Positions 6,571 through 21,654 of a stretch of 21,730 nt of DNA are shown piece after piece. The notes under the pieces are model-generated. The model made no database searches and had not been told where the DNA came from. It saw only the letters and a list, made by a program, of their open reading frames with translations. Each line of letters opens with the position of its first letter. Position 1 is the stretch's first letter. The DNA is taken from IMG/VR virus record IMGVR_UViG_3300042888_000113, positions 1 through 21,730 of that record. One strand, 5' to 3'. Made by a program: the position numbers and the translations under genes. Origin of the DNA: a virus.

Positions 6571-7359
6571 ATGGTAGATACCATCGTAGTACAAACACCC
6601 GAAACTAGTATGGATGCTCCAGCCGATCACAATCAGAAAATGATTGATAAGGCAGATGGAATCAATTCACCGGATTCTGGCGATAATCTGCAACAACAAG
6701 CAGACCGACCAGCATGGCTGCCGGAAAAGTTTAAATCCCCTGAAGACATGGCAAAAGCATATGCCTCGTTGGAAAGCAAATTAGGTTCACAATCGAACCA
6801 ACCACAGGCTGCACCAGCAGCGGATCAAGCTACTACCCAACAAGCAGATGCTGCCTTGTCCCAACAGGGATTAGATATGAGCTCATTCACAAATGAGTTC
6901 GATACAACAGGCGAACTATCAGAAGCCTCCTATGCAAAATTAGCAAGTGCAGGATTTGATAAGAACATTGTAGATAACTACATTGAAGGACAACGGGCTC
7001 GTGCAAGTATGTACGAGGTATCCCTAAAGGATTCCGTTGGTGGTAATCAGGCTTATGGTGATATGGTGGAGTGGGCGAAAGCCACAATGACACCTGCAGA
7101 GATTGATGCATTCAATATGTCAGTCTCCTCAGCTAATCCTGAGGCAGCAAAGTTAGCTGTGGCTGGACTTAAGTCTCGCTATGAATCAGCTAATGGTCGT
7201 GAACCAAGATTACTACAGGGGAACTCCAGTGGTGGTCAGGGTGATGCATTCCAATCCCGAGCAGAGATGACTACTGCTATGAAGGATCCACGATACAAAG
7301 CTGATCCAGCGTATCGTCAAAGCGTAATTAACCGTTTATCAAGATCTAACGTCTTGTAA
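6571..7359 (+). CDS. Capsid scaffolding/assembly protein (T7 gp9-like)
   Basis: This 262-residue, acidic, Gln/Ala-rich protein lies between portal and major capsid, the position of T7 gp9 (307 residues). The RPAWLPEKFKSPEDMAKAYASLESKLG motif near residue 49 is the hallmark start of T7-like scaffolds. A long low-complexity Gln/Ala linker follows, then helical segments (ELSEASYAKLASAGFDKNIVDNYI) and a C-terminal basic SYRQSVINRLSRSNVL-type helix that would bind coat protein. Scaffold proteins form the core of the procapsid and leave before DNA packaging. AAGGAAG precedes the ATG. Its stop is followed at once by the structured non-coding leader of the capsid gene. Confidence 0.93.
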   Translation: MVDTIVVQTPETSMDAPADHNQKMIDKADGINSPDSGDNLQQQADRPAWLPEKFKSPEDMAKAYASLESKLGSQSNQPQAAPAADQATTQQADAALSQQGLDMSSFTNEFDTTGELSEASYAKLASAGFDKNIVDNYIEGQRARASMYEVSLKDSVGGNQAYGDMVEWAKATMTPAEIDAFNMSVSSANPEAAKLAVAGLKSRYESANGREPRLLQGNSSGGQGDAFQSRAEMTTAMKDPRYKADPAYRQSVINRLSRSNVL

Positions 7360-7365
7360 GCGGGA

Positions 7366-7389
7366 GCCTCTTGGGAAGCCCGAGAGTGC
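7366..7389 (+). other. RNA hairpin immediately after the scaffold stop
   Basis: CTCTTGGG (7368-7375) pairs with CCCGAGAG (7379-7386) with one G-U pair and loop AAG. A further G-C/C-G pair closes below a single bulged base (T7387). No T-run follows, so it is not an intrinsic terminator. It may be a processing site or mRNA 3'-end stabiliser; that is inference. Confidence 0.6.
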
Positions 7390-7398
7390 CTTTAGGTT

Positions 7399-7436
7399 TT
7401 ACCTGTACCTTTAGTTGATCACTAAAAAACAGGTAA
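7399..7436 (+). other. RNA hairpin with internal loop upstream of the tRNA-like element
   Basis: TTACCTGT (7399-7406) pairs with ACAGGTAA (7429-7436). Above an ACC/AA internal loop, TTTAGT (7410-7415) pairs with ACTAAA (7421-7426) around loop TGATC. The lower helix is 8 bp and the upper 6 bp, with no mismatches. It ends four bases before the tRNA-like acceptor strand. Confidence 0.65.
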
Positions 7437-7440
7437 CTAC

Positions 7441-7517
7441 ACTCAGGTCCTCTAAACGTAAGACCAGCCTTCCTCCCTTGGGCTGAAATGCGGGTTCAAT
7501 TCCTGCCCTGAGTTCCA
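7441..7517 (+). ncRNA. tRNA-like element with encoded CCA (degenerate tRNA fold)
   Basis: ACTCAGG (7441-7447) pairs perfectly with CCTGAGT (7507-7513), followed by T7514 as discriminator and CCA (7515-7517). The length of 77 nt is tRNA-sized. The T-arm is canonical: GCGGG (7490-7494), loop TTCAATT, CCTGC (7502-7506). CAGCC (7465-7469) pairs with GGCTG (7481-7485) in the anticodon-arm position, but the loop is 11 nt (TTCCTCCCTTG) rather than 7. The D-arm is only TCT/AGA (7451-7453/7461-7463) with loop AAACGTA, lacking the conserved GG. The base at 9 is C. A centred anticodon would be TCC (Gly) but lacks U33. It could be a decayed tRNA, a tRNA mimic used for RNase P processing, or a regulatory RNA. 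A normal decoding tRNA is unlikely. Confidence 0.6.
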
Positions 7518-7543
7518 CCACACTTCTACTCTTAGAGGTGGTG
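7516..7543 (+). other. RNA hairpin overlapping the CCA end of the tRNA-like element
   Basis: CACCAC (7516-7521) pairs with GTGGTG (7538-7543), continued by C7523-G7537 and TCTA (7525-7528)/TAGA (7533-7536) around loop CTCT, with single bulges at 7522 and 7524. It uses the last two bases of the CCA end, so it could compete with presentation of a free acceptor end. Confidence 0.55.
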
Positions 7544-7620
7544 CAAGTCTTATCCTGAATCACACCCTTTACCCGACTGCGGTTGGACAATTCTGAGGTT
7601 CAGTGTTTTGGAGAAATAAG

Positions 7621-7625
7621 AGGAG
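7621..7625 (+). promoter_or_regulatory. Orphan Shine-Dalgarno-like AGGAG in a small loop
   Basis: AGGAG forms the loop of TAAG (7617-7620)/CTTA (7626-7629) and is followed by TTTTTT at 7631-7636. There is no ATG, GTG or TTG within the next 15 bases; the capsid ATG is 43 bases further on. It could be a ribosome standby site or chance. Confidence 0.4.
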
Positions 7626-7668
7626 CTTAGTTTTTTCCTTTTTAACTCTATATGAAAGCCCACACAAA

Positions 7669-8637
7669 ATGGCAAACGCAACTCCGTCCCGCTTGGGACA
7701 AATTAATAGTGCTGGTGATGTTGATGCACTCTTCCTTAAAGTATTCGCTGGTGAAGTATTAACAGCCTTTGAAGAAACAAACGTAACTGCTGATAAGCAC
7801 ATGGTTCGCTCCATCAGCAATGGTAAGTCCGCCCAGTTCCCTATCACAGGTAAGATTGGTGCTGAGTACCATGTACCCGGTGCTGAAATCACCGGCGGTA
7901 AAGTACCAGCTAATGAGCGTGTAATCACTATTGATGACCTCTTGATTAGCAACGCATTCATCGCAAACATTGATGAAGCTAAGAACCACTACGATGTTCG
8001 CTCAATCTACTCGACTGAAATTGGTCGTGCATTGGCTTACACCTATGACAAACACATTCTTTCTCTCCTGATTCAGGCAGCCCGTGATGGCTCTCCTGTA
8101 ACTGGTGAAGACGGTGGTGGCAATATTGTTGCTGCTGAAGGTTTGACTGATGACACAGGTGAGGCATTGATTGCTGCACTCTTCCAAGCTGCACAGACTT
8201 TGGATGAGAAGCACATTCCTTCCGAAGATCGCTATGCATTCTTGAACCCTGCTGCCTACTACTTGTTGGCACAGAACACCAAGATCATGAACACATTGTG
8301 GAATGGTGTTGGTAAGTACTCTGAAGCCAACGTAATGAAGGTGGCTGGTATTAACATTGTTAAGACCACTCACGCTCCTTACGGCAAAGAAGTATTATCT
8401 ACTGACTTGCCTTTGGCAGGTACTGGTGGCAAATACGCTGTTGATGCAACCACAACCTTCGGTGTCGTAGCACACAAGATGGCTGTTGGTACAGTCAAGC
8501 TGTTAGATCTCTCAATGGAATCTGAGTACGACATTCGCCGTCAAGGTACATTGATGGTAGCTAAGTATGCAATGGGTCACGGTGTTCTCCGTCCTGCTGC
8601 TTCTGTTGAATTGTCAACTGCTGCTCCAGCAAAGTAA
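7669..8637 (+). CDS. Major capsid protein (T7 gp10-like, HK97 fold)
   Basis: This 322-residue coat protein begins MANATPSRLGQINSAGDVDALFLKVFAGEV, the standard start of T7-like major capsid proteins (T7 gp10A is 345 residues). Later blocks such as FPITGKIGAEYHVPG (N-arm/E-loop region), ERVITIDDLLISNAFI and the C-terminal YDIRRQGTLMVAKYAMGHGVLRPAA are typical. The ATG at 7669 is preferred over an in-frame GTG at 7603 because the family starts here and the extra 22 residues look non-coding. No strong Shine-Dalgarno sits directly before the ATG; only GAAAG (7654-7658) at 10 bases. A long structured leader lies upstream, and a strong terminator follows, as T7 Tphi follows gene 10. Confidence 0.96.
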   Translation: MANATPSRLGQINSAGDVDALFLKVFAGEVLTAFEETNVTADKHMVRSISNGKSAQFPITGKIGAEYHVPGAEITGGKVPANERVITIDDLLISNAFIANIDEAKNHYDVRSIYSTEIGRALAYTYDKHILSLLIQAARDGSPVTGEDGGGNIVAAEGLTDDTGEALIAALFQAAQTLDEKHIPSEDRYAFLNPAAYYLLAQNTKIMNTLWNGVGKYSEANVMKVAGINIVKTTHAPYGKEVLSTDLPLAGTGGKYAVDATTTFGVVAHKMAVGTVKLLDLSMESEYDIRRQGTLMVAKYAMGHGVLRPAASVELSTAAPAK

Positions 8638-19674: not shown

Positions 19675-21654
19675 GTGGCTTACAGTTATATAAAATATAC
19701 CGGAGATGGTTCTCAGACGGATTTCACATTCGCCTTTGCATACTTCGATACTAGCCATGTCCATGTATTAGTTGACGGAATTGACGTTGACTTTGTGTGG
19801 CTCAATGCTCAAACAATCCAATGCGTAACAGCACCTGCTGCTGGTACGAAAGTAGTAGTTATGCGTAATACACCTAAGGAAGAGCCACCTGTAGATTTCA
19901 CGGATGGGTCTATTCTCTTAGAAAGAGACCTAGATACTTTAGTTCTCTATAACCTCTATATCTCACAAGAAGCAATCGACCAAGCCCAGCTCGGCATTCA
20001 ACAGAATGCTCTAGGTCAGTGGGATGCTAAAAACTTAAACATTGTTAATCTCGCTGATGGTGTAGAACCCGGCGATGCAATTAACAAGAGACAACTGGAT
20101 TATGAATATCCAGCAGTGAAGACTGTTGCTGACAACATGCCAGCAGTAGTTACTGTATCCGAGAACATTCCTGTCATTACTGAAGCTGCTACTTTAGTTC
20201 CTCATGCTGCTGCTATTGATACAGTGGCAAACAACCTGACAGATATCAACTCATTTAAAGATACCTACTTCATTGGACCAACGGCTCCAACACAAGCGGT
20301 AACTCTGGGTGACCTCTGGTTTGACACTGCTGGTAACCGAATGATGGTGTTTGGTAATGGTGGCTGGATGAATGCAGGTAGTTCTATTAACGGAACATCT
20401 AATCGTTCTGTCCAAGTATTGACTGAAGGTCAAACAGAAGTATCTGGTTTCGTGTATGACTCCATCTATTTGGATGTATACCTTAACGGTAATAAATTAA
20501 ATCCATTAACTGACTTCATTGCTGAGACAGGTTCAAGCATTACGCTGACAGAACCTGCTCATGCTGGGGATGTTATCGATTGCGTAGCATACGGAACCTT
20601 TGCGGTAGTCCGTGGTGCTGGTGGTAGTACAGGTTGGGGTGGTACTCCAATAGGTACTATTGCAATGTGGGCGGGGCAACTAAGCAACATCCCACAAGGC
20701 TGGATGCCATGTGACGGTATCGATGGTCGACCAGATTTACGCAACAGATTTGTTGTAGGTGCTGGTGATCTATATGCTGCTGGTAGTACTGGTGGTTTCT
20801 TAAATGCTACTTTGCCTACACATACTCATGAATTAATTCAGAGTCGTTCAGTAGCTACAGGTACTACTGATACAGCGGGTGAACACACCCACACCTCACA
20901 AGGCAACGGTGCTCCAAACGGTGGTGGTGCAGGTTCGGCATATACTTCTGGCGGTAATTCTCCACACACTATTAATGCTGGTGGGTCTCATTCCCACACA
21001 TTCACATTAGATATCCAAGGTGGTGTCTCTGGTTTGAATTCAGCAGGTGAAGATCCTACAGGTAAGAACCTACCTCCGTACTATGCCTTGATGTACATCA
21101 TCAAGATCACTGGTGATATAACTGATGGTCCTACAGGTCCTCAGGGTCCAGTGGGTCCAGCCGGAGCCTCTGCAGTTACTGGAGCAATCCAACACTTTGC
21201 TTTACGCACAGCCCCTACAGGTTGGTTAGCAGCGGATGGTTCTGCTGTAAGCCGTACTGACTATGCTGCTCTTTATACAGCAATGGGAGATACCTTTGGT
21301 GCTGGTGATGGTTCATCCACATTTAACTTACCCAACTTAATTGGTAAGTTCTTACAGGGTGTTAGTGGTGATGCTGTAGGTACTACAGGCGGTTCTGCTA
21401 ATGCTGTTGTTGTGTCACACAGTCACGATGTAGCAATTACGGATCCGGGTCACAGCCACGCACAGTGGTGTGATAGCGATATGGATGGTAATGCTAATGG
21501 TGGTCCAAGACCTGCCCGGAAAGAGTTTCAAAACACCGAGCATATTGTAGCAAACACTACAGGCATCACAGCTTCGGCTACTGCTGCAGGTGAAGATGGT
21601 ACGGGTAAAAACATTCCCCCATATGTTGGCTTACTGCCATGTATTAAGACTTAA
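19675..21654 (+). CDS. Tail fibre protein (T7 gp17-like N-terminus) with two tandem collar-type domains
   Basis: This 659-residue receptor-binding fibre starts at GTG 19675, with AGGAGAG at 19661-19667. Residues 1-150 are the T7 gp17 attachment domain (YIKYTGDGSQTDFTFAFAYF...DAINKRQLD). A second beta-domain (residues about 260-315: SIYLDVYLNGNKLNPLTDF...AGDVIDCVAYGTF) follows. Residues about 324-480 and 503-659 are two phage tail collar-type domains, each with HxH motifs (H383/H385, H404/H406, H439/H441; H582/H584, H593/H595) and each ending in GED-TGKN-PPY (458 and 639). A short collagen-like Gly-X-Y linker (485-499) joins them. Collar 1 lacks the segment between DG and PDLR that collar 2 keeps. 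It lies alone between a terminator and the next gene. Confidence 0.95.
   Translation: MAYSYIKYTGDGSQTDFTFAFAYFDTSHVHVLVDGIDVDFVWLNAQTIQCVTAPAAGTKVVVMRNTPKEEPPVDFTDGSILLERDLDTLVLYNLYISQEAIDQAQLGIQQNALGQWDAKNLNIVNLADGVEPGDAINKRQLDYEYPAVKTVADNMPAVVTVSENIPVITEAATLVPHAAAIDTVANNLTDINSFKDTYFIGPTAPTQAVTLGDLWFDTAGNRMMVFGNGGWMNAGSSINGTSNRSVQVLTEGQTEVSGFVYDSIYLDVYLNGNKLNPLTDFIAETGSSITLTEPAHAGDVIDCVAYGTFAVVRGAGGSTGWGGTPIGTIAMWAGQLSNIPQGWMPCDGIDGRPDLRNRFVVGAGDLYAAGSTGGFLNATLPTHTHELIQSRSVATGTTDTAGEHTHTSQGNGAPNGGGAGSAYTSGGNSPHTINAGGSHSHTFTLDIQGGVSGLNSAGEDPTGKNLPPYYALMYIIKITGDITDGPTGPQGPVGPAGASAVTGAIQHFALRTAPTGWLAADGSAVSRTDYAALYTAMGDTFGAGDGSSTFNLPNLIGKFLQGVSGDAVGTTGGSANAVVVSHSHDVAITDPGHSHAQWCDSDMDGNANGGPRPARKEFQNTEHIVANTTGITASATAAGEDGTGKNIPPYVGLLPCIKT

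Follow-up and report, generated by a model that had tools for sequence, protein, structure and literature searches.

Codon supply is the usual explanation for tRNAs encoded by phages. The locus described here raises the question of what a tRNA shape that has lost its decoding parts does in front of a capsid gene. The window (the whole 21,730-nt stretch that was analysed, from IMG/VR record IMGVR_UViG_3300042888_000113) comes from a T7-like phage and encodes, in this order, portal, scaffold, capsid, tail and internal virion proteins, as well as a ribonucleotide reductase. The element lies in the 309-nt gap between scaffold and capsid genes. Its features are listed below together with their support; L001 is a related contig with 96% capsid identity, and L085 an uncultured relative whose scaffold protein is 55% identical.

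6571–7359, plus strand: scaffold (head assembly) gene, upstream of the element (PHROG 1052, E 1e-62)
7368–7386, plus strand: upstream hairpin 1, CTCTTGGG-AAG-CCCGAGAG (fold of the gap; mostly retained in L001, with three paired changes and one broken pair)
7399–7436, plus strand: upstream hairpin 2, with a TGATCA-type loop (fold of the gap; in L001 the outer stem survives through paired changes; L085 has a similar hairpin)
7441–7447, plus strand: 5′ strand of the acceptor-like stem, ACTCAGG (sequence, fold, Rfam match; pairing kept in L001 with paired changes)
7451–7463, plus strand: D-arm remnant, a 3-bp stem of TCT (7451–7453) and AGA (7461–7463) with the 7-nt loop AAACGTA (sequence, fold, Rfam)
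7465–7485, plus strand: anticodon-arm remnant, CAGCC(T)..(G)GGCTG, with loop UUCCUCCCUU (fold, comparison with L001, alignment to tRNA-Gly)
7490–7506, plus strand: canonical T-arm, GCGGG-TTCAATT-CCTGC, with one G-U pair (sequence, fold, Rfam; missing from the L001 allele)
7507–7513, plus strand: 3′ strand of the acceptor-like stem, CCTGAGT (sequence, fold, Rfam)
7514–7517, plus strand: discriminator U73 (7514) and encoded CCA (7515–7517) (sequence, fold of the gap)
7516–7543, plus strand: hairpin 3, the first part of the conserved capsid leader, abutting the tRNA-like element (fold of the gap, leader comparison)
7544–7668, plus strand: remainder of the conserved, structured leader, reaching to the capsid ATG (leader comparison; ~95% identical to L001)
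7669–8637, plus strand: major capsid gene, downstream, with its ATG at 7669 (PHROG 267, E 1e-83)

An acceptor-like stem, a T-arm, U73 and CCA can be read directly at 7441–7517 (77 nt) in tRNA spacing, and every structural detail that a preliminary description had given for these parts was found in the sequence. Folded alone, the element forms all four arms at −23.9 kcal/mol (z −2.6), which 2 of 200 shuffles equalled, and this four-arm fold is still present in the predicted fold of the entire gap; C7516 and A7517 double as the start of the hairpin 3 stem. The Rfam tRNA model (RF00005) matched 7441–7514 with 30.0 bits, barely over the gathering cut-off of 29, at an E-value of 2e-4, or 2.5e-6 if the search is limited to RF00005. 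With default settings, an Rfam scan over the full window did not report the element, and ARAGORN—a check proposed at the outset—called no tRNA gene there. We also scanned with a minihelix pattern (7-bp acceptor, 5-bp T-stem with G-U accepted, TTCRA loop, CCA). It had a single match in the window, 7441–7517, and none in 400 whole-window shuffles, which places the element well above chance: the tRNA-like element is real. Across ~220 related loci, the other matches of this pattern were ARAGORN-called tRNAs of the same gap and one site in phage LUZ100. Two further Rfam candidates were rejected, namely RAGATH-21 RNA (RF03097; 22.3 bits against a cut-off of 70.3) and Plastid-ycf2, which lay far under its cut-off and on the strand opposite to the tRNA shape.

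The remaining arms are as aberrant as first described. The D-stem has 3 bp, C10 and C25 are unpaired, and the D-loop lacks the GG for docking with the T-loop. The anticodon-side loop is 11 nt long (9 nt counting the U-G pair), with neither the U33/purine-37 frame nor a recognisable anticodon. A tRNA that still works despite its odd anticodon loop, such as a decoding or suppressor tRNA, could draw on the intact acceptor, T-arm, U73 and CCA and on the Rfam score just over the cut-off; against these defects, the silence of ARAGORN and the loss of the T-arm from L001, we regard it as extremely improbable, and the earlier doubt about a decoding tRNA holds. The element is tRNA-derived and is no decoding tRNA.

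As to its ancestor, a glycine identity had been hinted at, and comparison with 35 tRNAs from phage T5, E. coli and relatives—a set containing only two glycine tRNAs—supported the hint. The best global match was E. coli tRNA-Gly(UCC), with a score of 14.0 versus 7.0 for the next; the T5 glycine tRNA was not among the best matches. Element and E. coli tRNA-Gly(UCC) share CAGCCTTCC and GCTGA..ATGCGGGTTC, and relative to that tRNA the window has six additional bases, TCCCTT, inserted after the TCC anticodon. By this resemblance, the element probably derives from a tRNA-Gly(UCC) gene. Exact patterns of the element's acceptor/T-arm and of a Gly-type anticodon/T-arm both returned 0 matches in 84,980 prokaryote genomes, so a donor was not found, and named phages and E. 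coli genomes held no direct DNA homologue.

The preliminary description had named no precedent for such an element at this locus. There is one, for relatives carry ordinary tRNAs in the scaffold-capsid gap. The nearest cultured phages, Pseudomonas phage LUZ100 (59% capsid identity) and the Rhizobium phages RHEph21 (60%) and RHEph01 (59%), all Autographiviridae, have a tRNA-Asn in the gap, and ARAGORN called tRNA-Arg in L026, tRNA-Asn in L027 and tRNA-Tyr in L029. L085 has two tRNAs, a Trp (59.9 bits) and a weak Ser (33.4 bits), between a hairpin-2-like stretch and a homologue of hairpin 3, the last one stopping a few nucleotides before that homologue. The tRNAs of the three cultured phages share with the window element the genomic site, the tRNA outline, the encoded CCA and a position ahead of the capsid leader and capsid gene. 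They differ in scoring 61–71 bits with full D and anticodon arms, whereas the window element reaches 30 bits and cannot decode. In RHEph21, a second, damaged and unannotated tRNA-like element (L213 1245–1317, 39.1 bits) adjoins the tRNA-Asn; with its short anticodon loop, perfect T-arm and CCA, it parallels the element in the window. The trait is patchy: TRX32-1 has no tRNA at the site, and ARAGORN found one in the gap of only 3 of 121 deduplicated capsid loci, so the phage group does not require it. Nor does the site demand a particular isotype, given that the tRNA-Arg of L026 (2634–2710) and the tRNA-Asn of LUZ100 (L212 1140–1215) are flanked on either side by sequence that is 98% identical.

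Because cultured relatives have working tRNAs at the same spot, the element is probably not of a new kind but an old tRNA gene, preserved at least partly as an RNA landmark. The same tRNAs raise a serious rival, a plain pseudogene: a tRNA-Gly captured at a tRNA hot spot and now decaying without function. Intact tRNAs are freely gained and lost among relatives (none in TRX32-1, one in RHEph01), RHEph21 and L085 each have a weak tRNA there in addition to the first, the element's D and anticodon arms are damaged, and the T-arm is gone from L001. The preliminary description had itself held that intact tRNAs in relatives would mark the element as a decayed tRNA; finding them favours that outcome, but the closing stem kept in L001 suggests that it may not be simply decaying. 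We consider mere decay rather unlikely for what this diverged allele retains.

Along most of the contig, L001 and the window are ~90–100% identical. At 7300–7513 identity falls to 66–68%, returning to ~95% near hairpin 3, and since the drop is confined to this cassette, the cassette has probably recombined. L081 is nearly identical to the window over ~6700–8200 and 75–97% identical upstream. The mosaic divergence of both contigs from the window suggests, at the level of sequence comparison, recombination around the scaffold-capsid gap. In L001, GTCCGGT...ACCGGAC closes a junction that contains a D-like hairpin and CAGCG-TTCCTCCCTT-TGCGTTG, whose loop TTCCTCCCTT is the same as in the window; the T-arm is absent, and CCC replaces CCA after the discriminator.

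In an ungapped alignment, all seven closing pairs are kept in L001, five of the seven being changed on both sides and none broken; given the same changed columns, the chance that all pairs stay standard is 0.017. A gapped alternative, drawn by eye and partially backed by alignment, is more parsimonious, with two double changes (A-U to G-C and A-U to C-G), the second pair lost coordinately and four pairs unchanged. As read from the two aligned sequences, pairing of the closing stem is kept under either alignment. Of the covarying acceptor and T-arm pairs that had been sought in relatives, the closing stem thus shows paired changes and the T-arm is lost. Hairpins 1 and 2 also show paired changes in L001, with two broken pairs in total. 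DNA patterns and protein queries turned up two alleles in viral contigs, the L001 allele and that of the window, which is also present in L081, L082/L084 and, in part, L162; with just two alleles, the evidence for selection is suggestive rather than strong. Even so, L001 keeps the closing stem by way of paired changes and keeps loop UUCCUCCCUU despite ~66% segment identity and the loss of the T-arm, so that some structure still seems to be selected and the element is perhaps more than simple decay. These features, with the paired changes in the neighbouring hairpins, are what speaks against a functionless pseudogene.

What the alleles share—closing stem and UUCCUCCCUU loop, not the T-arm—would also suit a leader structure of tRNA origin that works without RNase P: a multi-branch junction, closed and presenting UUCCUCCCUU, that would serve as insulator, stabiliser or binding site for protein or RNA. 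It stands in a chain of hairpins that retain pairing. A perfect T-loop and CCA in the window allele would however be superfluous for such a structure, and the idea that the UUCCUCCCUU loop pairs with the purine-rich leader downstream, sequestering a Shine-Dalgarno sequence, was rejected because shuffled loops paired no worse. We judge this reading improbable.

The capsid leader begins right at the element's CCA and is conserved in sequence and structure over relatives with ~54–96% capsid identity, at 7516–7668 in the window and likewise in most related loci (L003–L037, L085, L086, L101, L168 and others). It opens with a hairpin bearing a near-invariant CRCACU...RGUG, continues with ACCUUWGCC-hairpin-GAYAAC..UG and ends in a purine/pyrimidine hairpin ahead of the start codon. 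No Rfam family matched this leader above cut-off in the loci scanned, and it is possibly a new RNA family. In the leader of L026, L027, L029 and L212 (~1228–1241 in L212) we also observed AAGGAGGTGATCC, which is complementary to the 3′ end of 16S rRNA and lies far from the capsid start codon.

Published transcriptome data bear on what a tRNA in this gap may do. LUZ100 was profiled by ONT-cappable-seq (PMC10134795), where terminator annotations span −60 to +40 around the transcription termination site. We calibrated this rule on five intrinsic LUZ100 terminators, whose called ends fell in or beside U-rich tracts. Inferred in this way from a 100-bp annotation, RNA 3′ end T14, which the authors name a terminator, lies at 20829 of OP329100.1, 1–2 nt from the tRNA-Asn starting at 20831. 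By our own estimate, the chance of an RNA end within 2 nt is ~0.003; with only 22 such ends in 37 kb, the coincidence is unlikely. T15 maps to 21030 in the conserved leader, at the bulge of the hairpin homologous to hairpin 3 of the window. The passages of PMC10134795 that we covered do not comment on T14 or RNase P. We suggest that T14 and T15 are processing sites, not terminators; judged by its position, T14 suggests the end that RNase P would leave at the 5′ side of the tRNA. Promoter phi7 lies upstream of the tRNA-Asn and hence places the tRNA within the capsid mRNA leader; no LUZ100-type phage promoter was present in the window.

T14 beside the tRNA 5′ end, together with isotypes that differ inside 98% identical flanks, makes processing of the capsid transcript the most likely role. 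With phi7 upstream, the same facts suggest that the tRNA here is a processing point whose isotype matters little, and by analogy that the window carries a decoding-dead form of such a point. That the tRNA position recurs across lineages while the isotype changes and decoding is lost in the window points to a cis role in the message for the virion's most abundant protein. A tRNA at the site would thus act in cis: host RNase P would cut at its 5′ end, trimming on the CCA side would leave a capsid message with a defined 5′ end near hairpin 3, and once this was useful the decoding parts would be free to decay while acceptor, T-arm and CCA stayed. The tRNAs in the gap of LUZ100, RHEph21, RHEph01, L026, L027, L029 and L085 count in favour, as does the way the window element stops at hairpin 3, just as the L085 tRNA stops a few nucleotides before its homologue. 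We therefore lean, with modest confidence, towards a decoding-dead tRNA derivative, probably of tRNA-Gly(UCC), at a tRNA site of variable isotype, putatively acting as a cis processing point in the scaffold-capsid transcript.

The enzyme is less secure. RNase P is known to accept a minihelix of acceptor, T-arm and CCA (review PMC11143913), and the window has the minihelix with UCCA, its discriminator being U against RCCA. A1-U72 and a C at −1 are unfavourable for RNase P. L001, the closest relative, already lacks the T-arm and has CCC for CCA, so recognition by RNase P is not conserved; a substrate that is both efficient and conserved is made less likely by the T-arm loss and by A1-U72. Aminoacylation, another role raised in the preliminary description, gained no positive support. 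That a T7-like lineage uses a tRNA shape of any isotype, even a decoding-dead one, as an RNase P mark that separates scaffold and capsid messages and sets the capsid mRNA 5′ end is a tentative idea, conceivable though less likely than not. The processing role is a testable proposal, no finding, and it can be approached in a cultured phage, as the published LUZ100 data already hold an RNA end at the tRNA border. If true, part of the tRNA genes or pseudogenes annotated in phages would be signals for mRNA processing.

Known systems offer partial likenesses. T7 mRNA has RNase III processing sites; if the proposed role is right, they compare in separating neighbouring messages, but enzyme and RNA structure differ. 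The stable RNAs RNA1, RNA2 and RNA3 of phage T5 (AY543070), which lie beside ordinary tRNAs, are likewise phage-encoded tRNA-like RNAs, though they sit in the tRNA cluster of a large phage, whereas the window element precedes a capsid gene. T5 RNA3, the only one of the three in the 35-tRNA set, was outside the twelve best matches to the element. M3 RNA and C4 antisense RNA are non-tRNA phage RNAs processed by RNase P (review PMC11143913); the element would resemble them as a substrate if the proposed role is right, but theirs is processed and here processing is putative.

Three further observations concern LUZ100 and the gap in relatives. An acceptor/T-arm/ACCA motif on the LUZ100 minus strand (L217, 34601–34686 of the reverse complement) maps to plus-strand 2658–2743, an annotated tRNA-Leu beside the integrase. 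Matches to abiF RNA (RF03085), maybe terminator-like hairpins, lie in or near the scaffold-capsid gap at L014 1327–1363 and L213 1062–1097. Finally, L003, L005, L006, L011, L012, L091, L093–L095, L097 and L170 carry another conserved structured element, CCTTAGGAACGTTG..CACGGTAAGGCGTCTGACAGC with a GCCGG hairpin and perhaps a pseudoknot, upstream of the capsid leader at the place that the tRNA-like element occupies in the window.
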